The notes under the pieces: model-generated
What the model saw: only the letters and a program-made list of their open reading frames with translations
Databases searched by the model: none
What the model was told of the DNA's origin: nothing
Made by a program: the position numbers and the translations under genes
Shown here: positions 1-62,592 of the stretch, piece after piece
Position numbering within the stretch: position 1 is the first letter of the stretch
Layout of the letters: each line of letters begins with the position of its first letter
Origin: Crocinitomicaceae bacterium
GTDB taxonomy: Bacteria; Bacteroidota; Bacteroidia; Flavobacteriales_D; Crocinitomicaceae
NCBI GenBank assembly: GCA_002709305.1
Contig: PAQM01000027.1
Span: forward strand, 62,001 to 126,000
Length of the DNA: 64,000 bases
Reading direction: 5' to 3'

Positions 1-3000
1 TAGTATAAAAATTCAATTCTCTAAACAAAGCAAACCATTTTGATTTCTTCAAAATTTTCATCTTTTTCAATGGTGTAATTGGTTTGACATCAAATGAATA
101 ATTGTAGTTCAAGCCTCCTCCCCAGGTTTTTGTCCTATCATAATTTGTATTAAAATTTCTATGAAAATCTTCAGAATAGGCATAATTTGCAGACCAATTA
201 GATAGCCTCCAAAAATGTGGTTTTGCCCCAGCTTTTATTTCTTTACGAACATTTGTAAAATTATAAGATTTACGTTCAGTAAAATCTTGTCCCAACTTAG
301 CCCTCTCTTTCCGAGTTCCCTTATCATACTCTTCTAGTTTAATGTCTGGGTTAAATGGGTCAAACTCAGGGTTAATGATTCCTAACGAATAGCCATAGAA
401 AAATGGTAGTGATACTTTTGCTTGCTTTCCAAAAAATTGTCCTAACTGAACATTAGCATTAAAATCAAATCCTATTTGTTCATTTCTCTGACGATCTTGA
501 ACACGACTTTCTACTGAACCCCAATTAATACCTGAATAACTTCCTGACATGTTAACATTTGCAAAATCAGCAAATTGAACCTGCATTTGAGCAACTGCAG
601 CAGAACCTCCCTCACTTACGAAGTCTGTTAATCTTAATTCATTAACCCATACAATTGCACATTTAGCATCTCCATCATCATCCCAATTATCAATATTGTG
701 TGAGTCCTTATCTGGATTACGAATACCTACCATTATCATTTTTAATGCTTGTAAATTCGGACTCCCTTTTACTTTTATTATTCGTTCAGAATTAGCTGGA
801 TCTACCTTGGAGTATTCTACGACATAAGATGCTAAAGAAGAACCAGAATTAATCAAATCATTACGCTCTTTTTTTAAGTTTAATAAGTCTTGAAAAATAA
901 TTTCCATAAAATTATCTTCTGGCCATATATCAGTATCAATATTTGCCCCCCAAGGCGTAATCTTTAATGGGAATTCATATTCATAATAGTTTTCAGTATA
1001 ATCCGTACCTAAACGAAAAAACAAAGTAACATCATCATTATTTAAAGGTTTTAAAGGGTCTAATTCTTCTGCATGAACAAACATTTTCAATTTTTTATAT
1101 GCTCTAACATCAAACTGTACATTTCGATAAGCCGCCCTTGAATCTCCATCTTGAAGGTCACAAACCTCTAAACTTAAAGATTGTTCATTTAATAGCCTTT
1201 GAAAAGTTTGAGATGGATCAACTTCTTGAGTAATCCCTGGAGGTACTTTATATTCAATTGGAACACGTTTATCATTTTCTTGAATGTTTACTGCTCCAAC
1301 ATTAAACATAGTCAAATTAGGGTCTACAACGACACCTTCGCCAGGTTCCGCTAAATCATCAAAATATCGACGCCATTCACCTCTAATAAACTCCAAACGA
1401 GCAAATCGTAACACAACCTCTTCATCAAATCCTTTCAAGAACATTCTCATAAAACGTATAGATCTAAAGTCATTTATACCATTTACTTTTCTCTCAAAAT
1501 CACGAATTGGTATTTTTAACTGATACCATTTTTCAATATCCCCATTACCTTTATCATATGTTTGAATGTCTGTAATAAAATTTTGCCCCACTTTCATCTG
1601 GCTAGGTCGAAGACTTACCTTATACTGAAAATAACTTTCTGTTTCTGATAAATTATTATCTTGATTTACATCTTCAACGTCTGGAGAATTCGTTCCTAAC
1701 GTTGGATAACCATCAACATTAGCTGAACTAGACATTTCAGTGGTAGGTGAGTTACCTTCCATTCCATTAAACTTCTTATATCTCTCTAGAATATTTAATT
1801 GCTGTGAATCATAGTCATCATCTCTATAATAATTGTAATCATCATTTGAAGGGTCTGAGATAAGACTAGATTTAACCGATGGATCCAATACACTATTATT
1901 CTGAACCCAATTTACATAATCTGAAAAATGTATTTGTTCGTCTAAATTGTTCCAGCCATCTAAGCCAATATCTTGATTAACTCGTGTGCTAGGATCATTG
2001 TCAAATGCATTAACAACAACCTGTTGAGTTGAAACTCTAGCCCAAATAGTTGTATCTAAATTATCTTCAATTGAAGTTCCTTCTGCAGGAAGTCCATTTT
2101 CAAAGCTTTTACGTGAGTCTGGTAAAATATCTTCACTTATGTTTCCTAAATTAAAATACAAATCTCCTCCATTATGTGTTGAATTTGGATCCACATTTTC
2201 AGCATCAGTATTAAAAGGGTCCATAACCCACAATTGAATATACTCTACATTCGTTTGTTCAAAATCTGTTGTCGTTAATGCTCTCATAATACCCCCCCAA
2301 CGATCTTCTGGATTTATAAAAGTCCCATCGGAATTAAAAGTATTAGTCGTATCATAATTATACATTCCTCTTTCCTTTGGGTAATAAGCAACTTCTAACA
2401 TTTGAACATTTTGAATCGAACCATATTGAGGATCCCAATTTGGCCAAATATCCTTCTGATTCACTGCTCTCATCCTACTATCAGATAGTTGCGCTGGATC
2501 ATCAATAATATGCTGAGGTGTAAGATTATTGCTTTGATAAAACAAGGGGTCAATCGTATACCAAGATGTTTTAGACCTCTTATAACCCTCAGACAAATCA
2601 TTGTTTTCTGACTCAGGAAATAAATCAATTTGACCTTGAGGGACAGAAGCTAAATGCCAAGAAGCAATAGATTTCAAGTCAATTGTACTTTGAGCGCCCT
2701 CAAAGTCATCAATATAAGAAGTCCCATCTTTATTAATTGCCTTAGGTTGACCTGGTATTAAATGCGCAAATTCTCCCGTAAAAGAAACTGTTGATTTTTC
2801 TTTTGTAGAAATAATAGGTAAATAATCAACAAGCTTTGTTAAAAAAGGAACCTCTGTATTGTACTGTAAATCTATACCTATAATATTATTTTTAAATGGT
2901 TCACTTCCAATATCAACTTTTTGTGTTACCGGTCTCTCCATCATTCTCATCCAAGTTGCACCAAAATTCAATTTATCGCTAAATCGATGTGCAACACGTG

Positions 3001-5176
3001 CCCCAAATAAAGATTTAGATTGAAATCCAAAAACAGAATTACTCTCAATGGAAATTTTAATAGGTGTATTTGATTCTAAAATACCCGAGTTTAATATTTT
3101 AACACGTCCCAAATTATAATCAACAGTATAATCGACTCCCTCAGTCAATCTAAGACCTCCTGCAGTTACAGTAACAGCTCCCTCTGGCACATTTAAAGCA
3201 TTCAATGGAATGTCAGATGTAATAGAAGATTCATATTCTCCCTTAAAACTAAATCTATTTTTACTTGGTATTTGCTGTGCTGCTGTTTTTGTTGAATCAT
3301 ATAACTCGGTATATGCCACTCTATCAATTATTACGTCAGAAACGCCAGCTTCACTTAACTTATCTGCTAAAGTTTGACCAAATGGTTCTACAGTACTAAA
3401 ATAAACCCGACCATTTCTAGTATTAATAGTTCCCCCATTTTCTGCTCTATTACCATTAAATTGAATCGGTACAAAATCAAAAACACCATCAGAAAAAGGT
3501 TGGTTGTTTTGATTAATTCTATCCATCTCTAATAGAGTTACTAATTGCTTATCATCAATACCTACTATGTTTGTCCCTAAATTTTCTGAAGGAAAGAAAG
3601 GAACCATTAAAGAGGTTGCTGGATTATTGTATAATAAATCTAACCTAAATCCAACTTGACCCACTTGGTATGCTCCAATTGAATAAACATTCTTCATCAT
3701 CAAATCCCATAATTTGTTCTTTGGGTTCGTAATTGTTGGTTTAAGTAACTTCAGTATCAGTGCATCTTGACCATCAATCCCATCAGTAGAAAACTCCCCT
3801 ACTTGGTATGTTTCACCTCTATATGTATACTCATATGCAACAGCTAAAACCTGATCATTATTCAAAGGAAGGTTCAAAGAAATAAAACCTAACTGTGCGT
3901 TATAGGTAAATTCCTGTTCAGTTAACTTTCTTGCATTCTCTACTTTCTCATAATTAACAGCTTGTTCAAATGGACCTGGTTGAGATGCTTGACTACTTAA
4001 TGAAGCAACTGAATTAACAAATGTTCTAATATTAGGTTCATCAACTGAAGCCCACTGATAAATGCCATTAGCATTATTCGATGGAAGTTCTGTTACAGAA
4101 TAAGAGCCTGGGTTACCTTCACAATTAGATTCTTTTGCTTCCCCTAAATCAGTAAACCCAATGATATTTCTTGTATTATCAGTTTTGTTTGTTGTATTGG
4201 TTAACCAAACTTCAATTCGATTGATGTTTATAGTTGAATTTACTATTGGGACTGTTGACATGCCTTCATCATAATGATCTTTATAATAAAGATTTAAAAA
4301 ATAATGTCTATTTGCTTCATAATTATCAGCTGTCAATTCAAATTCTTGGACTTGTGCTTTGCCTGCTACATTTATCTCCTCACGTCTACCTTTTGAAGAT
4401 GCCGCAATCAGATCAACCGTGGTTTTCCCAAACTTTAATTGAGTACTAGCACCAAATAACGTTTGAGACCCTTGAATTAAAGAAGTCGGCAAATCCATTG
4501 CAACATTTCCTAGAGCAATCTTTTGGATAATCTGGTCTTCATTACCAGTGTATTCAAGAGTTGAAACGTTATCAAATTCAAATGCTGCCTGAGTGTTGTA
4601 ACTAACTCCTAATTTTAATTTTGTTCCAATTTGCCCAACCAAATTCAAATTAATCTGTTGATTAAAATCAAATCGAGTAACCTTTCTTTGCCTTACAGGG
4701 ATTAATGGGTTGTCATATCTAGACGAATTGACACCAAAAGACAATTCTACACTACCTTGAGGACGAATTGTAATTTGATCAGAACCAAAAAAATTTTCAA
4801 ATATTTTACTGCCTATTTTAATTGGGAATTCCAATGGCTGGTTCTCTGCTGTCTGTTCCTCAATTTTTTCTTTCCAATTATCTTGTAATGCTTTTTTTCT
4901 TTCAAATTCAATATATTCATCAAGAGTCATCATAGAAGGGTTTCTAAAATTTAAATTCCCTATGGTCTCCTGAAAAACATATGTCCCTGTTGAAGGGTCA
5001 TAAACAATAGATGGCTGAACTGAACTGGGATCCCCTAAATCAAAACTATGAATAGTAGTTTGAGTAGGATCATAATTATTAAAAATAGGATAAATTAATG
5101 TATCCTGTCCAAAACTTAGTGAGACAAAGAATAATAAAAAAATAAAAGTTATATGTAACTTTTTAATTATAAACAA
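1..5176 (-). CDS. sprA: SprA, type IX secretion system outer-membrane translocon / gliding motility cell-surface protein; 3' end lies outside the window
   Basis: Not in the ORF track, probably because it runs off the window edge. Reverse-strand translation is open in one frame where I read it (near 1-200 and about 2750-5176). Peptides such as GNLNFRNPSMMTLDEYIEFERKKALQDNWK, GSVELSFGVNSSRYDNPLIPVRQRK and KLGVSYNTQAAFEFDN are SprA-like. Signal-like start (TTG)FIIKKLHITFIFLLFFVSLSFGQDTL. Directly downstream of ruvA, as in other Flavobacteriia. Confidence 0.93.
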   Translation of the reverse strand, partial: MFIIKKLHITFIFLLFFVSLSFGQDTLIYPIFNNYDPTQTTIHSFDLGDPSSVQPSIVYDPSTGTYVFQETIGNLNFRNPSMMTLDEYIEFERKKALQDNWKEKIEEQTAENQPLEFPIKIGSKIFENFFGSDQITIRPQGSVELSFGVNSSRYDNPLIPVRQRKVTRFDFNQQINLNLVGQIGTKLKLGVSYNTQAAFEFDNVSTLEYTGNEDQIIQKIALGNVAMDLPTSLIQGSQTLFGASTQLKFGKTTVDLIAASSKGRREEINVAGKAQVQEFELTADNYEANRHYFLNLYYKDHYDEGMSTVPIVNSTININRIEVWLTNTTNKTDNTRNIIGFTDLGEAKESNCEGNPGSYSVTELPSNNANGIYQWASVDEPNIRTFVNSVASLSSQASQPGPFEQAVNYEKVENARKLTEQEFTYNAQLGFISLNLPLNNDQVLAVAYEYTYRGETYQVGEFSTDGIDGQDALILKLLKPTITNPKNKLWDLMMKNVYSIGAYQVGQVGFRLDLLYNNPATSLMVPFFPSENLGTNIVGIDDKQLVTLLEMDRINQNNQPFSDGVFDFVPIQFNGNRAENGGTINTRNGRVYFSTVEPFGQTLADKLSEAGVSDVIIDRVAYTELYDSTKTAAQQIPSKNRFSFKGEYESSITSDIPLNALNVPEGAVTVTAGGLRLTEGVDYTVDYNLGRVKILNSGILESNTPIKISIESNSVFGFQSKSLFGARVAHRFSDKLNFGATWMRMMERPVTQKVDIGSEPFKNNIIGIDLQYNTEVPFLTKLVDYLPIISTKEKSTVSFTGEFAHLIPGQPKAINKDGTSYIDDFEGAQSTIDLKSIASWHLASVPQGQIDLFPESENNDLSEGYKRSKTSWYTIDPLFYQSNNLTPQHIIDDPAQLSDSRMRAVNQKDIWPNWDPQYGSIQNVQMLEVAYYPKERGMYNYDTTNTFNSDGTFINPEDRWGGIMRALTTTDFEQTNVEYIQLWVMDPFNTDAENVDPNSTHNGGDLYFNLGNISEDILPDSRKSFENGLPAEGTSIEDNLDTTIWARVSTQQVVVNAFDNDPSTRVNQDIGLDGWNNLDEQIHFSDYVNWVQNNSVLDPSVKSSLISDPSNDDYNYYRDDDYDSQQLNILERYKKFNGMEGNSPTTEMSSSANVDGYPTLGTNSPDVEDVNQDNNLSETESYFQYKVSLRPSQMKVGQNFITDIQTYDKGNGDIEKWYQLKIPIRDFERKVNGINDFRSIRFMRMFLKGFDEEVVLRFARLEFIRGEWRRYFDDLAEPGEGVVVDPNLTMFNVGAVNIQENDKRVPIEYKVPPGITQEVDPSQTFQRLLNEQSLSLEVCDLQDGDSRAAYRNVQFDVRAYKKLKMFVHAEELDPLKPLNNDDVTLFFRLGTDYTENYYEYEFPLKITPWGANIDTDIWPEDNFMEIIFQDLLNLKKERNDLINSGSSLASYVVEYSKVDPANSERIIKVKGSPNLQALKMIMVGIRNPDKDSHNIDNWDDDGDAKCAIVWVNELRLTDFVSEGGSAAVAQMQVQFADFANVNMSGSYSGINWGSVESRVQDRQRNEQIGFDFNANVQLGQFFGKQAKVSLPFFYGYSLGIINPEFDPFNPDIKLEEYDKGTRKERAKLGQDFTERKSYNFTNVRKEIKAGAKPHFWRLSNWSANYAYSEDFHRNFNTNYDRTKTWGGGLNYNYSFDVKPITPLKKMKILKKSKWFALFRELNFYT

Positions 5177-5177
5177 A

Positions 5178-5753
5178 CTATAGTATTTTCAACGCTTTCT
5201 TAATCAACTGTTCAACTGAATCTTCTCCTGACCCAATCTTATTAATTGCTTTATCCGCAGATTTTTTATCAAAACCTAAAGAAACCAATGCATTTAACGC
5301 ATCAAATTGATTAGTATTGTTTGAATTGAAAATATTTTCATTTGAAAATGCCATTTTTGTCATTTTATCCTTTAAGTCTACAATAACACGTTGAGCTGTT
5401 TTCCCTCCTATACCTTTTATCCCTTGAATTGTAATAACATCTTCTGATTGAATAGCTAAAGCTATTTCTTCTGGCAATAACGATGACAGCATAAGCATTG
5501 CCGTGTTTGGACCAATGCCGGAAACTGAGACTAAATGATTAAACATTTCTCGCTCTACAATATCAGCAAAACCAAATAAAATTTGAGCATCTTCACGAAC
5601 AACTAATTTCGTGTATATACGAATATTCTCTTCGGAGCCTAAAGAAGTAAAAGTATTTAATGAGATTTTTACTTCATAACCTACTCCACCACAATCAATA
5701 ACTAAATCTGTTGGGTTCTTTTCTATTAATCTTCCTTTAAGTTGTCCTATCAT
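5178..5753 (-). CDS. ruvA: Holliday junction branch migration protein RuvA
   Basis: MIGQLKGRLIEKNPTDLVIDCGGVGYEVKIS...SGIGPNTAMLMLS...IKGIGGKTAQRVIVDLKDK: canonical RuvA OB and HhH motifs. Confidence 0.98.
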   Translation of the reverse strand: MIGQLKGRLIEKNPTDLVIDCGGVGYEVKISLNTFTSLGSEENIRIYTKLVVREDAQILFGFADIVEREMFNHLVSVSGIGPNTAMLMLSSLLPEEIALAIQSEDVITIQGIKGIGGKTAQRVIVDLKDKMTKMAFSNENIFNSNNTNQFDALNALVSLGFDKKSADKAINKIGSGEDSVEQLIKKALKIL

Positions 5754-5755
5754 TT

Positions 5756-8023
5756 TTATTTGTTTTGAGCATCTACAACTGCAACTTTAACCATATTAAT
5801 TATTTCACGAACAGAAGACCCCATCTGTAAAACATGAATAGATTTTTTCAAGCCGACAAGCACTGGTCCAACAGCATCTCCTTCAATCATTTCTTGTAAA
5901 AGTTTATATGCTATATTTCCCGAAGATAAATTTGGGAATATTAATGTGTTTACCTTCTTATTAGCCAAAGTAGAAAAAGAAAATTGTTCATTCATTAACG
6001 TATTATTTAATGCAAAGTTCGCTTGAACTTCTCCGTCAATAATTAAATTTGGATCTTTTGATTTAATAATAGTAACTGCTTCAGACATTTTTTTTGCATC
6101 ATCACCAATGGCTGAACCGAAATTAGAATAACTTAATAAAGCTACTCTTGGTGTAATTTTAAAACTACGAATTGTTTTTGCAACATTTGATGTTATCTCT
6201 GCAATATCTTTTGCAGTAGGATTTAGATTTATTGTTGTGTCGGCAAGAAATAATGGGCCACGTTTAGTATTTAAGATATACATACCCGCTACTTTTGTAA
6301 TTCCTTTTTGAAGTCCAACCGTATGAAGCGCTGGTCTAAGAATATCTCGATAATTACGAGTAATCCCTGATATCATTGCATCAGCGTCTCCTGTTTCAAC
6401 CATCATTACTCCAAAATGATTCCGTTCTCGCATTACTTGAATTGCTTCATACTCTGTAACACCTTTTCTCATCCTTTTTTTAAAAAACTCTAATCCAAAT
6501 TTCACACGACGTGATTTTTCTTCTTCTGATTTTGGATCAATTATTTCAATCTCTGAAAATTCAATACTATACTCTTCAATTAAGGACTCTATTTTTTTTC
6601 GGTTTCCTAATAAAATTGGAATTGCTACTCCCTCTTCAAAAGATGTTTGAGCTGCCTTTAAAATTTTAACATTATCTGCTTCAGCAAATACTAAACGCTT
6701 AGGAAAACGTTGGGCTTTTTCTGTAATATTTCGAATTAACTTATTATCTAGCCCCAATCGGTTTTTCAACTCCATTTCGTATGCCTCCCAATCTTTAATT
6801 GGATCTAAAGCAACTCCTGAATCAATAGCAGCCTTAGCAACAGCTGGTGCAACATAATAAATCAACCTTTGGTCTAGTGGTTTTGGAATAATTTGCTCTC
6901 TACCAAAAGAAATATTCTTCTCTCCATATGCCTCAACTACTTCTTCGGGTATTGATTCCTTCGCTAAAGCTGCAATTGCCTTTACTGCGGCCAACTTCAT
7001 CTCTTCATTGATCGTTTTGGCTCTTACATCTAAAGCTCCTCTAAAAATAAAAGGGAAACCTAACACGTTATTAACTTGATTAGGGTGATCTGATCTTCCT
7101 GTAGCCATTATAATATCTGTTCGAACTGAAGTTGCGTCTTTATATGAAATCTCTGGGTCAGGATTAGCTAAAGCAAAAACAATAGGATCTTTTGCCATTT
7201 TTTTTATCATCTCTTTGTCAACAAGTCCACCCTTAGAAAGACCAAGAAAAACATCTGCTTTTTTAAATGCATCAACAAATTTTATATCCTTAGTGTGATT
7301 TTGAGAGAATATTTGCTTTTGAGCATCTAGGTCTTTTCGGCCTCTATGTATTAGGCCTTTCGAGTCAAACATATAAATGTTATGAATTTTTGCCCCGAGA
7401 GAACAATATAACTTAGCACAAGAAAGTGCTGATGCACCCGCTCCAGAAATAACAATTTTAATTTTCTCTATTTTTTTTCTCGCTAATTCTAATGCATTTA
7501 ACAATGCTGCAGATGAAATTATAGCTGTACCATGTTGATCATCATGCATAATAGGTATATCCAGTTCCGCTTTTAACCTTTCTTCTATTTCAAAGGCCTC
7601 TGGTGCCTTAATGTCTTCTAAATTAATCCCTCCAAAAGTAGGTGCTATAGACTTTACGGTTTGAATAAAGGTTTCAGGGTCAGATGCATCTACCTCAATA
7701 TCAAAAACATCAATATCAGCAAAAATTTTAAAAAGAAGTCCTTTCCCTTCCATAACTGGCTTCGATGCTGTAGGACCTATATTGCCAAGACCAAGAACAG
7801 CAGTACCATTTGATATTACAGCAACAAGATTCCCTTTACTTGTATACTTATATACATTATCTGTATTTTTACTAATCTCTATACAGGGTTCTGCAACACC
7901 TGGAGAATAGGCTAAAGACAAATCTCTCTGAGAAGTATATGGCTTAGTTGGTATGACTTCTATCTTACCAGGCTTACCTGAAGAATGATAATCAAGTGCA
8001 TCTTTTTTTCTCATTTTTGACAT
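5756..8023 (-). CDS. maeB: NADP-dependent malic enzyme with C-terminal phosphate acetyltransferase-like domain
   Basis: 755 aa; malic enzyme N-term ([25 protein letters not shown]) fused to a PTA-like domain ([31 protein letters not shown]). Confidence 0.96.
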
Positions 8024-26436: not shown

Positions 26437-27357
26437 TTATTCTATTTTTTTCTTAATTACTTGATACACTTCTTCAGTAATGGCATCTCTAACATAAATC
26501 AACAAATGAACATTAGAATAATCATATTGAGATGGTAGTGCATAACTATAATTAAAATAATATTTTCCATTATTAAATTGATTTATAGTAAGTTGATTGC
26601 CTTGCCAAAAACTTCCTATAGAACCTCTCATTATATCTCTATGAATATAATTTGGGTCTGTAGAATTATCCGGCATTTTCTGCTTACCTATTACTGAATC
26701 CTCTATTAATATTACAACAGTATATAGATCATTAACATTAACCGATTGGTCTAAAATATCAATTTCAGAGTGTATAAAAACTCCTCTTGTAGATGGGTAA
26801 TAGTTAATCTCTGCTTGTAGATTTACTTTTAAATTTGTCGCCATAGCAGCTTGAGTATAATTTCTCCAATCATTAACCCCTGCTGTATGTTGCCCCCCGT
26901 TTAAAATCCTATTTATTGTCCCCCTTGGATTACCAATGAAAGCAGAACCAGGCATTGAACCAAAATGCTCACCTATAGCAAGTCCAGATATATTAGTCCA
27001 ATCAATCGGATAAGAAGAAGAAACAGATTGGAAGGAGCCTAATCCTTCAGGACCTGCATGAATAGTTGAAACAAAAACTCTCTGTGGATAATCTCCATAA
27101 ATTGAATGAGCCGTATCTGCGGCAATTGGACAGAAAGTACACCGATGCCCTGTAAAATCCTCTAACATTACATTTCTAAGAGAATTATTATTAACAGAAA
27201 ACACTGGCCATTCTGAGTTAGCATAAGCAATAGAGTCTCCACCAGGATAAAGTGTATAATCTAATTGTGTACTAATAGATGTTGGATAGGGGTTTTCAAT
27301 TTTATCACAAGACAAAAGACACAAACCTATCAAAAAAATAAAGACTTTATTTTTCAT
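26437..27357 (-). CDS. Omp28-related outer membrane lipoprotein with CTFC thioredoxin-like motif
   Basis: Lipobox CLLSC; NVMLEDFTGHRCTFCPIAADTAHSIYGDYPQRVFVSTIHAGPEG: Omp28/thioredoxin-like signature. Confidence 0.85.
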   Translation of the reverse strand: MKNKVFIFLIGLCLLSCDKIENPYPTSISTQLDYTLYPGGDSIAYANSEWPVFSVNNNSLRNVMLEDFTGHRCTFCPIAADTAHSIYGDYPQRVFVSTIHAGPEGLGSFQSVSSSYPIDWTNISGLAIGEHFGSMPGSAFIGNPRGTINRILNGGQHTAGVNDWRNYTQAAMATNLKVNLQAEINYYPSTRGVFIHSEIDILDQSVNVNDLYTVVILIEDSVIGKQKMPDNSTDPNYIHRDIMRGSIGSFWQGNQLTINQFNNGKYYFNYSYALPSQYDYSNVHLLIYVRDAITEEVYQVIKKKIE

Positions 27358-27367
27358 GTTTTAAATT

Positions 27368-29041
27368 TTAAAAACTGTGTGTGAATGATAATGTTAATCC
27401 ATTTGATGCAGGCACAAATCGGCAGACTCCACCAACACAAAACAACCCTTCTCTTTGCTTTCCATAGCCTATAGTTATACGAGTAGCATCTTTAATATAA
27501 CCAAAAGATCCATAAATGTAATGTACTCTTAAATCATCTTGTGGATTACCATAATTGTATTGATCCATAACACTAAAGAACCAATGAGGAGAAACATTAT
27601 ACTCTAATAATAAAGTAGCCCAATTGCCTTTATCATTTATATTTCCAACTTTGTCCTTATTAACAAATAAACCTTGAAGTTCTAGCCTCAAGGAATGCTT
27701 CTTGTTTATTTTATACCCTAATTCAACTACTCCTATATGAGATTGTATTATCCCAGTAGCATCTCCTGTAACTTTAGCAACATCATTATTTAAACAAATA
27801 TTAAAATAACTTAAACGTGCATTAAAATTTTTAGTAAACTTTCTATAAATATTTACATTAATATCTCTCCATAATAAACTATCACTTTGATCAAACAAGC
27901 GACTCTCATAAGCAACACCAGTTGAATCATTTAAATCAATATTTTCCGTTCTTTGCAAAGGCTTATATGCTGTAGAGAAATTAGCATTAATTGATGTGCC
28001 ATATTTACCTCCTAATTTTGAGCCTCGCTTAATTGTATAAAGAATTTCTGCTTGATATGCAATCTCCCCTACAGGCTGAGTTACATATGGATAAATTGAT
28101 GAGACAAGATTATATGTATGAGTCTTATTCATTGCAGGTAGGAAATTAATAAACAGATCCGTCAACTCTTTAGTTCTATCAGATCTATAGCTCATATTAT
28201 CTACTGATTTTGCAGATAAAACTATTCCTAATCCTTTTTGCGAATAACCAAAATTAAACAAGGCGGCATGACCATAATTATATATATATCCATTGTCAGT
28301 TGAAGGGTCTTGTCCCTTAATGATATACTCCCCATCTAAATTAAATCTACCATAGCGTAAACTAGCTCTTCCACCATAAGCACCTGTGTTTTCTGGTAAA
28401 ACATATGTCTGATTCTCATCTGATTGATACTTACTCACAAAAGAACCACCGATAGTAACGTCTAATTTCTTACCCTCAAGTTTTTTGAAAATCGAATTTA
28501 AATTAAATTCACTATCTATTCCTCGAACAATTCCATCACCATGAATAATACGAGACTCAAATGAATATCTTTGAAGTCCATAAACACCTTTCAAGATAAC
28601 GCCTCTAAAAGGTCTTAATACTAAACGCACCCCATCTAAAAGGTTATCATAACCTAAAGCCCTATCCTCATATGCCCTAAGAGACATCCCTGAACCAAAT
28701 TGTTCATAAAATGAACCTAAAGTAACATCAACAAAATTATTTTGATATCCAATATATCGCATACCAAGGCCTGTTCCATCAAATCTATTTGGATAACCTT
28801 GAATCCTTGGTAAATAAGACTCGATTCTAAAGCCAGCTTTAAAACCTTTGTTGGTATAAAAAACATTCATATATGTATTGATTAGAGACTTAGAATCAGG
28901 TTGATTAGCCTCAATCAAACTATCTTGATTTAAATACTGAAAGATACTCTCTACATTTCCTGTCAAACTACCTAATTCATTTTGACCATGCAAAGAAATT
29001 GAAGAAATAATAAAAAAAATATAAAATAGTGGCTTTTTCAT
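27368..29041 (-). CDS. DUF6029 family predicted outer-membrane beta-barrel protein
   Basis: Signal peptide (IFFIISSISLHGQ), alternating beta-barrel-like sequence, C-terminal ...NGLTLSFTHSF; located between TlpA and Omp28. Confidence 0.75.
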   Translation of the reverse strand: MKKPLFYIFFIISSISLHGQNELGSLTGNVESIFQYLNQDSLIEANQPDSKSLINTYMNVFYTNKGFKAGFRIESYLPRIQGYPNRFDGTGLGMRYIGYQNNFVDVTLGSFYEQFGSGMSLRAYEDRALGYDNLLDGVRLVLRPFRGVILKGVYGLQRYSFESRIIHGDGIVRGIDSEFNLNSIFKKLEGKKLDVTIGGSFVSKYQSDENQTYVLPENTGAYGGRASLRYGRFNLDGEYIIKGQDPSTDNGYIYNYGHAALFNFGYSQKGLGIVLSAKSVDNMSYRSDRTKELTDLFINFLPAMNKTHTYNLVSSIYPYVTQPVGEIAYQAEILYTIKRGSKLGGKYGTSINANFSTAYKPLQRTENIDLNDSTGVAYESRLFDQSDSLLWRDINVNIYRKFTKNFNARLSYFNICLNNDVAKVTGDATGIIQSHIGVVELGYKINKKHSLRLELQGLFVNKDKVGNINDKGNWATLLLEYNVSPHWFFSVMDQYNYGNPQDDLRVHYIYGSFGYIKDATRITIGYGKQREGLFCVGGVCRFVPASNGLTLSFTHSF

Positions 29042-29049
29042 TTTTAATA

Positions 29050-29556
29050 TTACTTCGCTGTTAATTTTAATATCTCCTCATATAATTTATCCTCATCACC
29101 AGGAGCATAATTATTATGAGAATAAACTATTTTACCATCACTATCTAAAAGGAAAGTATGGGGCACATTATTTACACCCATTGATCTTTTAAAGTCTCCA
29201 TTTGGATCCATTAAGACTAAATAATCCCATCCCTTACCATTCACATACATAGGAACAGAATTTTTTGTTTTCTCATCATCAATTGAAACAGCAACTAATT
29301 CAACACCTGTTTCATCCTGCCAATCAGGATAAAGATCATGAATAGTGTTTAACTCTCTCTTGCAAGGTGAGCACCAAGTTGCCCAAAAGCTTATAACTAC
29401 AGGACCATCAAACCCTAATTCAGAAGTGTTGAAAGTTTTCCCATTCATACTCTTTAATTGAACAGAGGCAACCTTTTTATCTAATGTTTTTTCTTTTTGT
29501 GCATTTAAGTTAAACAAGACCAATAGTGCAACACAAAACAATAATATTTTTTTCAT
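29050..29556 (-). CDS. TlpA-family thiol:disulfide redoxin, exported
   Basis: Signal peptide then FNTSELGFDGPVVISFWATWCSPCKRELNTIHDLYPDW...GVNNVPHTFLLDSDGKIVYSH. Confidence 0.95.
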   Translation of the reverse strand: MKKILLFCVALLVLFNLNAQKEKTLDKKVASVQLKSMNGKTFNTSELGFDGPVVISFWATWCSPCKRELNTIHDLYPDWQDETGVELVAVSIDDEKTKNSVPMYVNGKGWDYLVLMDPNGDFKRSMGVNNVPHTFLLDSDGKIVYSHNNYAPGDEDKLYEEILKLTAK

Positions 29557-29609
29557 AATCTTTTTTTAAACATTTATTAAACTTAACTATTTCAAAAATC
29601 ATGCAAAAC

Positions 29610-29642
29610 CAAATTTAAGGGAATTTTATTGTTTTTTACAAA
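29610..29642 (-). promoter_or_regulatory. Putative Bacteroidota-type promoter for the TlpA-DUF6029-Omp28 operon
   Basis: On the minus strand: TTTG (29642-29639), 21-nt spacer, TAAATTTG (29617-29610), matching the known -33 TTTG / -7 TAnnTTTG layout; 53 nt upstream of the tlpA-like ATG. Confidence 0.5.
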
Positions 29643-29753
29643 GCGTAGAAATTAATTTTTGTGTTTAAAGAAAACTGTACTGATTTAAACTAATTATGTT
29701 TAAACTCTTTTATTTCATATATTTGGTTAAAGTTTATTCAAAAAATTAGAATT

Positions 29754-30476
29754 ATGAAGAATTTACTACTCACTACAATTTCAATAATAACCTTGACATT
29801 TTCATTTGCTCAAGATTTAACTATTAATATAGAAGGTTCAACAACAGACGTCTCTGGAACTACTCTACAGGCCATGCCAATAAACGGCTCAACGGATGAT
29901 CATAAACTATATGATTTAATTATTAATAATAATGATACTTCTGATCAAAACTGGTTGATTACAAGGTCTATCATTAACGAGACAACAGGATGGTCTAATT
30001 ACTTATGTTGGGGAGTAAATCCTGGTTTAGGTCTTTGCTATCCTACTAGTACTGATTTAGTTTGGTCAACAGCCGCAGAAACAATACCTGCTGGAGGGTC
30101 TGGTAAACTCTCTGCATATGTAAATGTGACAAGTACAGGTTCTGCAACATATAGATACTATGTTTCAACAGATGGAATTAATTTCCTTGATTCAGTGGAT
30201 GTATTAATCGAATCTGTTTTAGGTATAGAAAATCTACCTAATATTTCAGCTTACATTTCACCAAACCCTGCAAAAGATTTTGTTAACATTAAATCAAGTT
30301 CCTCTAACATATCCAAAATAACTTTATTAGATGTTTTGGGTAACGTTGTTTTAAAAGAAAATATGGGTTCTTCAAAAAGATTAAATATATCTGAATTAAA
30401 GAATGGTGTTTACTTTCTAAACATTGATTCTAAAAATTTTAAATCTACAACAAAAAAACTTGTCGTTAGACATTAA
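29754..30476 (+). CDS. Small secreted protein with T9SS type A C-terminal sorting domain
   Basis: Signal peptide MKNLLLTTISIITLTFSFAQ; CTD ISAYISPNPAKDFVNIKSSSSNISKITLLDVLGNVV...LNISELKNGVYFLNIDSKNFKSTTKKLVVRH; one Cys pair (LCWGVNPGLGLC). Confidence 0.88.
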   Translation: MKNLLLTTISIITLTFSFAQDLTINIEGSTTDVSGTTLQAMPINGSTDDHKLYDLIINNNDTSDQNWLITRSIINETTGWSNYLCWGVNPGLGLCYPTSTDLVWSTAAETIPAGGSGKLSAYVNVTSTGSATYRYYVSTDGINFLDSVDVLIESVLGIENLPNISAYISPNPAKDFVNIKSSSSNISKITLLDVLGNVVLKENMGSSKRLNISELKNGVYFLNIDSKNFKSTTKKLVVRH

Positions 30477-30524: not shown

Positions 30525-32963
30525 TTATCTAAACATTAAAACTGAACCAAAATTTTCTTTTCTCTCATCCGAAGCAGTGACTTTGAATTCTACTTTCCAA
30601 CTATAAACACCATCTTGAACATAGGCCCCATTAAAAGTACCATCCCAACCAATATTTACATCATGACTTTCAAATATTAATTGACCCCAACGATTGAAGA
30701 TCAATAATGTATAATCAAAAGGGTCATAACCAGAGGAGAATACAGGCTGAAAAGTATTATTAAAAGGGTCCCCATCTGGAGTAAATGCATTAGGGATGTA
30801 GTAAATAAGTGGCTCTTCAATCTGTATGGGCTGAACTAGAGTATCAGAACATCCAAAAGAATTATATGCTATTAGAGTGATGTCATCAATTATATCAGAA
30901 GATGAAAAAGAATAAATCGGAGAATCTTCAGAAGAAAACTCGCCACTATCTCCAAAAATCCACATATAAGAATCTGCACCTTCAGAGGTGTTTATAAAGG
31001 TAACTTCAACATTATTTAAGGAAGAAAAATCGGTTTGATTTTGAAAAAAAGAAGCGATTACAGGAAGATATTCTGTGACATTTATATTTACTATACTGTC
31101 ACACCCGGAAAGGGATGTAAAAATTTCACTATATGATCCAGGGCTATATGTATTCCCTATTTCTGAAGTATAGATTTCACCAAAACAAACGGATTCATCA
31201 ATTGACGAAGTTATTAAAGGGAGCTCTGTAATCATATAAGTTACTATACTATCACAACCATTTGAAGAAACAAATGTTTCGTTAAAAGAACCTGGGCCAT
31301 ACAAATTACCCTGAGCAGAAGTATATTGTTCTCCAAAACAAACTGTGTCTATAACATTAGCAGAGTTAGAAAACAAAGCTGTAACGTGACTTACGATAAT
31401 AGAATCACAACCATTAACAGAAAATAAATTAGATGTGTGAGATGTGTTTCCAGTAATAACTTCATTTGTGCCATCCGGATAAGTCACGGTTGAACTCTCA
31501 CAAGCAAAGATACTATCTGTAACATTATACAAAGGTTGCATAGTTACATTTGTAACTATAATAGAATCACAACCATTAACAGAAAATAAATTAGATGTGT
31601 GTGTTGTATTTCCAGTAATAACTTCATTTGTGCCATCCGGATAAGTCACGGTTGAACTCTCGCAAGCAAAGATGCTATCAGTAACATTATACAAAGATTG
31701 CATAGTTACATTCGTAACTATAATAGAATCACAACCACCTGTCGTTAGTAAATTAGATGTATGTGATGTGTTTCCAGTAACAACTTCATTTGTGCCATCT
31801 GGATATGTAACTGTTGAATTTTCACAAACAGATATGCTATCTGTAACATTAATTGTTGTGATAGTGACTAAAATAGAATCAATAGAAAAGCAAGAAGCAT
31901 CTAATGTATCCTCATAACCAACATAATATGTTCCTGGAGAAGATACTAGGTTTGATATTGGATTAATAGAAGCATTTGCATCTGCTAAGGTTGAATAAAA
32001 TTGAGCATTACCTATACCCGAAGAAACATTGATACCATTGTTCAAATCAACATTGTTTGGAGCACAATTAGTCAAATCATCCGTTATTAGTAAGGGTGGA
32101 ATACATGGGGCAACACTGCATGCAAGATTAAAGCCTGTTAACACATCAAACCCAAACCATGTTCTTGTTGCAACATCATATAAAAATGCCATACTATTAG
32201 CCCAAGAAGCTCTAAAAGCATTGTTTACTACAGTCGATGCAGGAAGCTGAGACATCCCCGCATAAACCCCAGTAACTTTATCAACAAAATATATCCGCTT
32301 TAATTGATAGTCTACTAAACCAATTTCATGTCCTAAACAATCTGTATAAAAAACAGAATTATTATTTAAATTACCAAAAGCTACAGGAAGCCCCGTAATA
32401 GGAAGAGTAGAAATTAATGTATTGGTAGCTCTATCACGCTTTTGTATAGATCCTGCATCATAATACCAAATTTCATTGTCAACACAATTATAATCTCCAA
32501 CAGATTGAGCTGTAGGCTGATTATTGCCGACAAAAATATTAGACCCTGTGTTTAACGCAAAACCTGTACCATTTAAATTAAAAGTCCATATTCCAAAAGC
32601 ATTATATCCATTAGCTTCTAACTGGTCTTCATTAAAATTCCACCATAAGCCACGAATATCAAAACCTGTATTGGTTTGAAACAAAGGATTGCCGAGCTCA
32701 TCAAAAGTTTCAAGAGGAAACCCAGAATTTCCAGCAATACCAGCATAATAGACATTAAAGTTTGGATTAAATGCAACACCAGAAGCGTTTGTGCCACCAG
32801 ACTGAACAAAACCTAATGAAACAGTTGGTATTGCGTTGGGTATCACGGCACACTGAGCAAGAATATTTAATGATTGTGAGGTAAATAAAAAAACAGTAAG
32901 TATAAAAAATAAACTACTAGTTAAATTTATATTTTTTTTTACCCCTAACATAATCTTAATCAA
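30525..32963 (-). CDS. Large cell-surface protein with T9SS type B (gliding motility-associated CTD) sorting domain and repeated 'GCDSIIVTNVT' modules
   Basis: C-terminus YYIPNAFTPDGDPFNNTFQPVF...LLIFNRWGQLIFESHDVNIGWDGTFNG...DGVYSWKVEFK is the type B CTD; PKD-like VEVTFINTSEGADSYMWIFGDSG. Confidence 0.92.
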   Translation of the reverse strand: MIKIMLGVKKNINLTSSLFFILTVFLFTSQSLNILAQCAVIPNAIPTVSLGFVQSGGTNASGVAFNPNFNVYYAGIAGNSGFPLETFDELGNPLFQTNTGFDIRGLWWNFNEDQLEANGYNAFGIWTFNLNGTGFALNTGSNIFVGNNQPTAQSVGDYNCVDNEIWYYDAGSIQKRDRATNTLISTLPITGLPVAFGNLNNNSVFYTDCLGHEIGLVDYQLKRIYFVDKVTGVYAGMSQLPASTVVNNAFRASWANSMAFLYDVATRTWFGFDVLTGFNLACSVAPCIPPLLITDDLTNCAPNNVDLNNGINVSSGIGNAQFYSTLADANASINPISNLVSSPGTYYVGYEDTLDASCFSIDSILVTITTINVTDSISVCENSTVTYPDGTNEVVTGNTSHTSNLLTTGGCDSIIVTNVTMQSLYNVTDSIFACESSTVTYPDGTNEVITGNTTHTSNLFSVNGCDSIIVTNVTMQPLYNVTDSIFACESSTVTYPDGTNEVITGNTSHTSNLFSVNGCDSIIVSHVTALFSNSANVIDTVCFGEQYTSAQGNLYGPGSFNETFVSSNGCDSIVTYMITELPLITSSIDESVCFGEIYTSEIGNTYSPGSYSEIFTSLSGCDSIVNINVTEYLPVIASFFQNQTDFSSLNNVEVTFINTSEGADSYMWIFGDSGEFSSEDSPIYSFSSSDIIDDITLIAYNSFGCSDTLVQPIQIEEPLIYYIPNAFTPDGDPFNNTFQPVFSSGYDPFDYTLLIFNRWGQLIFESHDVNIGWDGTFNGAYVQDGVYSWKVEFKVTASDERKENFGSVLMFR
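31390..31875 (-). repeat. Three tandem 162-bp (54-aa) repeat units within the T9SS type B protein gene
   Basis: Identical seed ATAATAGAATCACAACC at 31396 and 31558 (offset 162) and about 31720. My hand alignment of the first two shows 8 differences in 162 bp; the third is more diverged. Confidence 0.9.
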
Positions 32964-61896: not shown

Positions 61897-62592
61897 ATGA
61901 ATAAAGTAATAAAAAACAAAGAGGAAGCTTTAATTGGTATCCAAGATAATATGACTATTATGCTTGGTGGTTTTGGTTTATGTGGAATACCTGAAAATTC
62001 GATTTCACAACTAGCTAAAATGGGTGTTACTGGCTTAACATGTATATCAAATAATGCTGGTGTCGATGATTTTGGTCTAGGGCTACTTCTACAAAGAAAA
62101 CAAATAAAAAAAATGATTTCTTCATATGTGGGAGAGAATGATGAGTTTGAACGACAAATGCTTTCTGGAGAACTTGAAGTTGACTTAATTCCTCAAGGTT
62201 CATTAGCAGAGAGATGTAGAGCCGGTGGAGCTGGGATACCTGCATTTTATACGCCAGCAGGATATGGTACTGAAATTTCAAGAAATAAAGAGGTCCGTGA
62301 ATATAATGGTAAACCACATATACTAGAAACAGCATTAACTGCTGACTTTGCAATTGTTAAAGCTTGGAAAGGTGACTCTTCTGGGAACTTAATATACAAG
62401 GCAACTGCTAGAAATTTCAATCCTATGATGGCAATGGCTGGAAAAATAACAATTGCAGAAGTAGAAGAACTCGTCCCTGCAGGAGAATTAAATCCAAATG
62501 AAATTCACACTCCAGGTATTTTTGTCCAGCGTATTTTTCAAGGAGAAAAATTCGAAAAGCGAATTGAACAACTCACAACAAGATCAAAATAA
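61897..62592 (+). CDS. scoA: CoA transferase subunit A (succinyl-CoA:3-ketoacid CoA-transferase-like)
   Basis: [107 protein letters not shown]. Confidence 0.96.

Follow-up and report, generated by a model that had tools for sequence, protein, structure and literature searches.

A gene module for a TlpA-like redoxin, a DUF6029 barrel and an Omp28 lipoprotein kept beside a PorA homologue in Bacteroidota: a putative thiol-disulfide system of the envelope

The DNA analysed here (the window: 64,000 nucleotides, positions 62,001 to 126,000 of contig PAQM01000027.1, GCA_002709305.1) is part of a 2.3-Mb Crocinitomicaceae-type genome and carries genes for a TlpA-like redoxin, a DUF6029 outer-membrane barrel and an Omp28 lipoprotein next to a divergent gene for a small protein of the type IX secretion system (T9SS). 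The four-gene module as such is close to certain. By fold, and by a weak profile relation, the T9SS protein is a homologue of PorA, the surface protein of Porphyromonas gingivalis that is a core partner of the T9SS translocon and has control over this major secretion system. We put at roughly 0.5 the probability that the four proteins form an envelope thiol-disulfide module servicing PorA and its barrel. A sequence-only reading of this DNA had described three close-packed minus-strand genes, the divergent T9SS protein and a close Cys pair in each of the four products; all four open reading frames and all four pairs lie where it had placed them, in agreement with Pfam. The PorA identity was overlooked in that reading, and part of the system is thus already known in P. 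gingivalis. The genes of the module, all for exported proteins, are as follows:

26437..27357, minus strand: Omp28-family lipoprotein, 306 amino acids (aa), N-terminal half predicted to be thioredoxin-like
27368..29041, minus strand: DUF6029 outer-membrane beta-barrel, 557 aa, about 24 predicted strands
29050..29556, minus strand: TlpA-type periplasmic thiol-disulfide oxidoreductase, 168 aa, with Sec signal peptide and WCSPC motif
29557..29753, no strand: divergent spacer of 197 bp between the genes for TlpA and the PorA homologue
29754..30476, plus strand: PorA homologue, 240 aa, with signal peptide, immunoglobulin (Ig)-like domain bearing one Cys pair, and T9SS type A sorting domain
30255..30467, plus strand: T9SS type A C-terminal sorting domain (CTD) of the PorA homologue, residues 168-238, PF18962 (Por_Secre_tail) 1.2e-15 and TIGR04183, both above cut-off

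The PorA homologue and its neighbours

When the model of the N-domain of the T9SS protein (pLDDT 91.7) was compared with 350,542 PDB chains by Foldseek, the top match, and the sole one at E <= 0.001, was P. gingivalis PorA (6KJK; E 4.4e-4, TM 0.56/0.62). A profile (A5) built on the mature domains of proteins of several families also finds 6kjk, at E 0.0018 with the next best match at 0.29, and its alignment sets the C-x4-C column over the LCFGQC of PorA. Searches of the PDB with the window protein or a close-family profile missed PorA, as did a Bacteroidales-only profile in which signal peptides had been kept, whereas mixed profiles found it. Weak matches to extra PorA copies in the same genome lay at protein starts and were set aside as probable signal peptides. 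One T9SS protein of a distant locus (L164, 6863-8350, minus strand) has three tandem PorA-type domains, each with a Cys pair of its own.

Gene order in P. gingivalis is consistent with this identity: PG2172 is PorA (PMC7712824) and PG2173 is Omp28 (PMC9722745), adjacent by gene number and clustered here too, and PG2174 is an uncharacterised protein of outer-membrane vesicles (PMC4335976). From this order we infer that PG2174 is the DUF6029 protein. In a Bacteroidales-type family (f11) the genes follow one another on one strand as TlpA, DUF6029, Omp28 and a small protein that has a CTD and a Cys pair, and the TlpA proteins are up to 77% identical to PDB entry 2m72, which is probably PG_2175. 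TapC and the PG0611-PG0616 cluster were rejected after being weighed as possible P. gingivalis counterparts.

The association of these genes extends well beyond the present genome. Among GTDB genomes, 80 loci in the family were found to encode a DUF6029 relative. Where there was enough flanking sequence for a locus to be counted, TlpA adjoins DUF6029 in 73 of 74 and Omp28 adjoins in all 77, and 60 of 70 loci have the divergently encoded T9SS protein; DUF6029 itself was found in 51/60 genomes of the family and in 80 of the 297 sampled across the phylum. In a more distant sample, 53 loci from 22 other families, Omp28 lies near DUF6029 in 45, TlpA is next to it in 43, and a small PorA-like protein that has a CTD and a Cys pair is nearby in at least 24, the last two counts being lower bounds, since T9SS domains diverge fast and two loci have Omp28 between TlpA and the barrel. 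The sequence-only reading had staked its proposal on the linkage recurring outside this genome and on the Cys pairs persisting in orthologues, and the neighbourhood comparison it had called for found both.

A genome-wide search with the PorA-domain profile points the same way. It was positive in 24 of 297 genomes, 23 of which have DUF6029 (Fisher p 1e-13, uncorrected for phylogeny), and in 20 of the 24 the best match falls within 7 kb of DUF6029; four positive genomes had contributed to the profile, and of the other 20, 16 have the two genes adjacent. In a further genome (G274) the end of a contig carries PorA together with the adjoining TlpA and Omp28. The T9SS channel SprA was detected in 79/80 genomes with DUF6029 as against 149/217 others (Fisher p 7e-10, likewise uncorrected for phylogeny). 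In the genome of locus L154 no SprA_N match was found despite the presence of DUF6029.

Within the window, the TlpA-DUF6029-Omp28 operon is tightly packed, with intergenic gaps of 8 and 10 bp, and the module is flanked, according to Pfam, by genes for an M1 peptidase, a biotinyl-lipoyl protein and a T9SS type B protein. A pattern search of the divergent spacer found -7-like octamers of the TAnnTTTG type at 29610-29617 (minus strand) and 29718-29725 (plus strand), which are weak promoter evidence, as such octamers are no commoner than chance within the window. The type B protein (30525-32963, minus strand, 812 aa), beside the cluster, contains several near-identical Cys-bearing repeats (ACESSTVTYPDGTNEV) and MiiA motifs. 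The N-terminal part of SprA, the T9SS translocon, is encoded at 329-1921 (minus strand; PF14349 2.2e-156), about 25 kb from the porA cluster.

Cysteine pairs, folds and fusions

All eight columns of the four pairs are Cys in every family sequence that covers them in the 80-locus alignment, and it is these covering sequences that are counted below:

29362..29376, minus strand: WCSPC codons of TlpA (C62, C65), 75/75 family members
27422..27439, minus strand: barrel hairpin CVGGVC (C535-C540, within FCVGGVC) with R541 next in sequence, 79/79 family members
27130..27141, minus strand: CTFC motif of Omp28 (C73, C76), 79/79 family members
27307..27309, minus strand: lipobox Cys of Omp28 (C17), Cys in 77/79 family members
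30006..30038, plus strand: Cys pair C85...C95 of the PorA homologue (LCWG...LC), both Cys in 63/63 family members

Other cysteines of TlpA, the barrel and Omp28 (its lipobox aside) vary freely across the family, and C85 and C95 are the only ones that the PorA homologue has; its pair is retained in Bacteroidales homologues. Comparison of more diverse sequences sharpens the picture, for W61, C62, P64 and C65 are invariant among 28 TlpA proteins, the two CTFC cysteines among 28 Omp28 proteins together with P144, a candidate cis-Pro, and C535, C540 and R541 are the sole invariant residues other than Gly among 57 barrels, giving the motif CxxGxCR. The CxxGxC part is invariant in about 20 other families, and at L179, the remotest of the loci read, the sequence at this place is CTSGICY. 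A CxxC, the potentially redox-active form, is invariant in TlpA and Omp28, and other pairs are invariant in the barrel and PorA.

The redoxin matches Pfam AhpC-TSA (1.9e-21) and Redoxin (1.1e-20), has a signal peptide without a lipobox, and finds its closest PDB relative in 2m72 (2.1e-41). It falls under the curated equivalog cut-offs for ResA, TlpA and DsbE (87.8 against 170, and lower), and belongs to a dedicated subfamily of TlpA-like redoxins. A second surface redox protein is seen at locus L140, where a gene directly upstream of TlpA (3885-5351, plus strand) encodes 488 aa with a redoxin domain and a T9SS tail.

The barrel matches DUF6029 (PF19494) over its full length, residues 1-557, at 9.9e-183 (609 bits against a cut-off of 27). 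Its AlphaFold2 model (pLDDT 92.4) has about 24 strands, and in this model the Cys pair flanks the tight turn that joins the last two. At locus L158, in a single-contig genome, the DUF6029 gene (6028-7146, minus strand) ends before the Cys hairpin and is possibly a pseudogene.

Omp28 is matched by PF11551 (1.1e-19; 71.4 against a curated cut-off of 34.9) and stays under the cut-off of the NCBIfam Omp28 lipoprotein model NF033782 (106.7 against 150). Aligned by hhalign to that of TlpA, its profile matches with a probability of 82% (E 1e-5), CxxC over CxxC, which supports a thioredoxin-like fold. From the lipid-bearing Cys onwards the family strongly conserves CDK[VI]xNP (window 27292-27309), which may serve to export the lipoprotein to the surface. 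Locus L154 encodes a tandem double Omp28 protein of 689 aa with two CxxC motifs (3390-5459, minus strand).

Natural fusions bear on where these proteins act. At locus L148 a single 667-aa protein consists of TlpA (residues 1-159) followed from about residue 160 by the barrel, whose own signal peptide is absent, and TlpA would therefore be placed at the periplasmic N-terminus of the barrel. At L164 an Omp28 domain, a PorA domain and a T9SS tail make up one protein, and at L173 and L169 Omp28 itself has a T9SS tail; in these lineages at least, Omp28 and PorA therefore appear to act beyond the outer membrane. The fusions would thus place the TlpA/barrel pair in the periplasm and outer membrane and the Omp28/PorA pair on the surface, and they support a joint function at the outer membrane.

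A redox role and its rivals

A redox role common to the four parts is likely, and we infer that redox equivalents may be transferred between them. In the mechanism that we propose, inner-membrane DsbD would keep periplasmic TlpA reduced, and TlpA would dock on the DUF6029 barrel from the periplasm, there setting the redox state of the CxxGxCR hairpin of the barrel, either during assembly or via the pore. On the outer face, thioredoxin-like Omp28 would set or shuffle the disulfide of PorA. The barrel could be where PorA docks or is exported, and part of the signal to the PorXY-SigP pathway might lie in the redox state of either of these two proteins. The genome encodes both a DsbD and a PglZ-domain protein of the size of PorX. 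A bolder version, in which DUF6029 carries thiol-disulfide exchange across the outer membrane, reducing equivalents from TlpA passing via the barrel to surface Omp28 and PorA so that the cell controls external disulfides and reads the redox state of PorA into T9SS control, is in our view doubtful; that TlpA only matures the barrel is somewhat likelier than an exchange which crosses the membrane. The sequence-only reading is thus supported in part: the fusions, the linkage and the invariant cysteines favour a joint function at the outer membrane, whereas the disulfide transfer and the passage through the barrel that it also envisaged are putative.

Several points weigh against a thiol-disulfide module. 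The Cys hairpin of the barrel is predicted to be on the extracellular side, away from TlpA, a side assigned from strand order, given that outer-membrane barrels finish with a strand whose end is periplasmic; since the hairpin would be extracellular by this topology, TlpA should be unable to reach it in the assembled barrel unless it enters the pore. All four pairs could be plain structural disulfides. A PorA-like gene went undetected in about half of the distant loci, and in all five loci of one family (f32: L144, L149, L150, L153 and L213) a DUF6029-Omp28 pair that retains its Cys pairs stands without TlpA or PorA at the locus. At two of these, L213 and L150, a gene directly upstream of that for the barrel encodes an exported protein of 216-246 aa whose family is unassigned.

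The same topology could be explained if there were no relay and TlpA were a helper in biogenesis, setting the disulfides of the barrel, Omp28 and PorA as they pass through the periplasm, much as Dsb proteins act on LptD in Escherichia coli, after which the pairs would be structural and no redox traffic would cross the outer membrane. We regard this as possible, at odds clearly short of even. A periplasmic TlpA with the barrel hairpin predicted on the far side is what it would lead one to expect, TlpA at the N-terminus of the L148 fusion would lie close to the barrel during assembly, and the barrel and PorA each have a single pair, enough for one disulfide. It accounts less well for a redox-type Omp28 being sent to the surface, by a lipobox or by the T9SS tail of the L173, L169 and L164 proteins, and the invariant R541 and Gly near the barrel cysteines exceed what a plain disulfide staple would need.

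Other functions for the barrel seem improbable. DUF6029 might be a polysaccharide secretion porin of the OPX/Wzi type which the redox genes merely keep folded, and the single paper mentioning DUF6029 that was found in the open-licence literature did link it, in an HHpred survey, to Wzi-type barrels and suggested a polysaccharide role (PMC9603273). However, the conserved partners are TlpA, Omp28 and PorA, and no OPX or polysaccharide genes were seen among the window neighbours scanned (those in other genomes were scanned for the module families only). Moreover, a Foldseek search of the PDB returned only large outer-membrane barrels in general, such as the usher FimD, MtrB and TonB-dependent receptors, with TM <= 0.49. 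About as improbable is a role in metal or haem handling, with the Cys pairs binding a ligand at the surface, the barrel importing it and TlpA keeping the ligating thiols reduced. Pigmentation is lost in porA mutants of P. gingivalis (PMC7712824), and HBP35, a T9SS thioredoxin of that species, binds haem and is thioredoxin-active (PMC2907840). The pigmentation defect, however, accompanies reduced or lost activity of the gingipains (PMC7712824), the sequences next to the pairs showed neither a His-rich motif nor any other metal motif, and the conserved set lacks a TonB-dependent receptor.

Comparison with known systems

The interest of the gene module lies in what is missing from the PorA pathway. 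PorA acts upstream of PorXY-SigP and needs an unidentified mediator to reach PorY, and it is surface-located even in sov, porV, porK, porM and porT mutants (PMC7712824); it associates with PorV and Sov in a complex, and secretion by another route has been suspected (PMC8754138). Because they are kept next to porA across the phylum, TlpA, DUF6029 and Omp28 are candidates for the missing parts of this pathway, with Cys pairs as their common chemical feature, and two published puzzles, the arrival of PorA at the surface without the T9SS and the link from PorA to PorY, become testable. A likely role would also emerge for Omp28 and for DUF6029, a family of barrels on which hardly anything has been published, and redox control via a barrel to the outer surface would, if true, be a new kind of envelope electron path. 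No paper treating TlpA, Omp28 and the T9SS together, or Omp28 with a selenoprotein, was found in the open-licence literature.

The nearest system is that of P. gingivalis PorA (PGN_0123/PG2172, PDB 6KJK), which shares with the present homologue a signal peptide, a FimH-like Ig domain of the PorA-N fold, one Cys pair, a type A CTD, a similar length (246 against 240 aa) and Omp28 at the neighbouring gene number. It differs in its very low sequence identity and in that the TlpA, DUF6029 and Omp28 partners are unnamed in the two studies (PMC7712824, PMC8754138); the porA gene is divergent here and co-directional in Bacteroidales, and a signalling role for the homologue is putative. HBP35 illustrates that T9SS bacteria put thioredoxins on their surface (PMC2907840), albeit from a different gene elsewhere. 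The window Omp28 is homologous to the Omp28 family at large (PF11551, P. gingivalis Omp28, PDB 2r2c). With the DsbD/CcdA-TlpA/ResA/CcmG relays the module has in common a TlpA fold with WCxPC and a DsbD in the same genome, but the partner here is an outer-membrane barrel and not a cytochrome c assembly factor. In E. coli the large outer-membrane barrel LptD has functionally important cysteines, the disulfides of which are matured by Dsb proteins. DUF6029, which has no sequence or specific fold relation to LptD, differs from it in carrying one conserved pair, held in a C-terminal hairpin.

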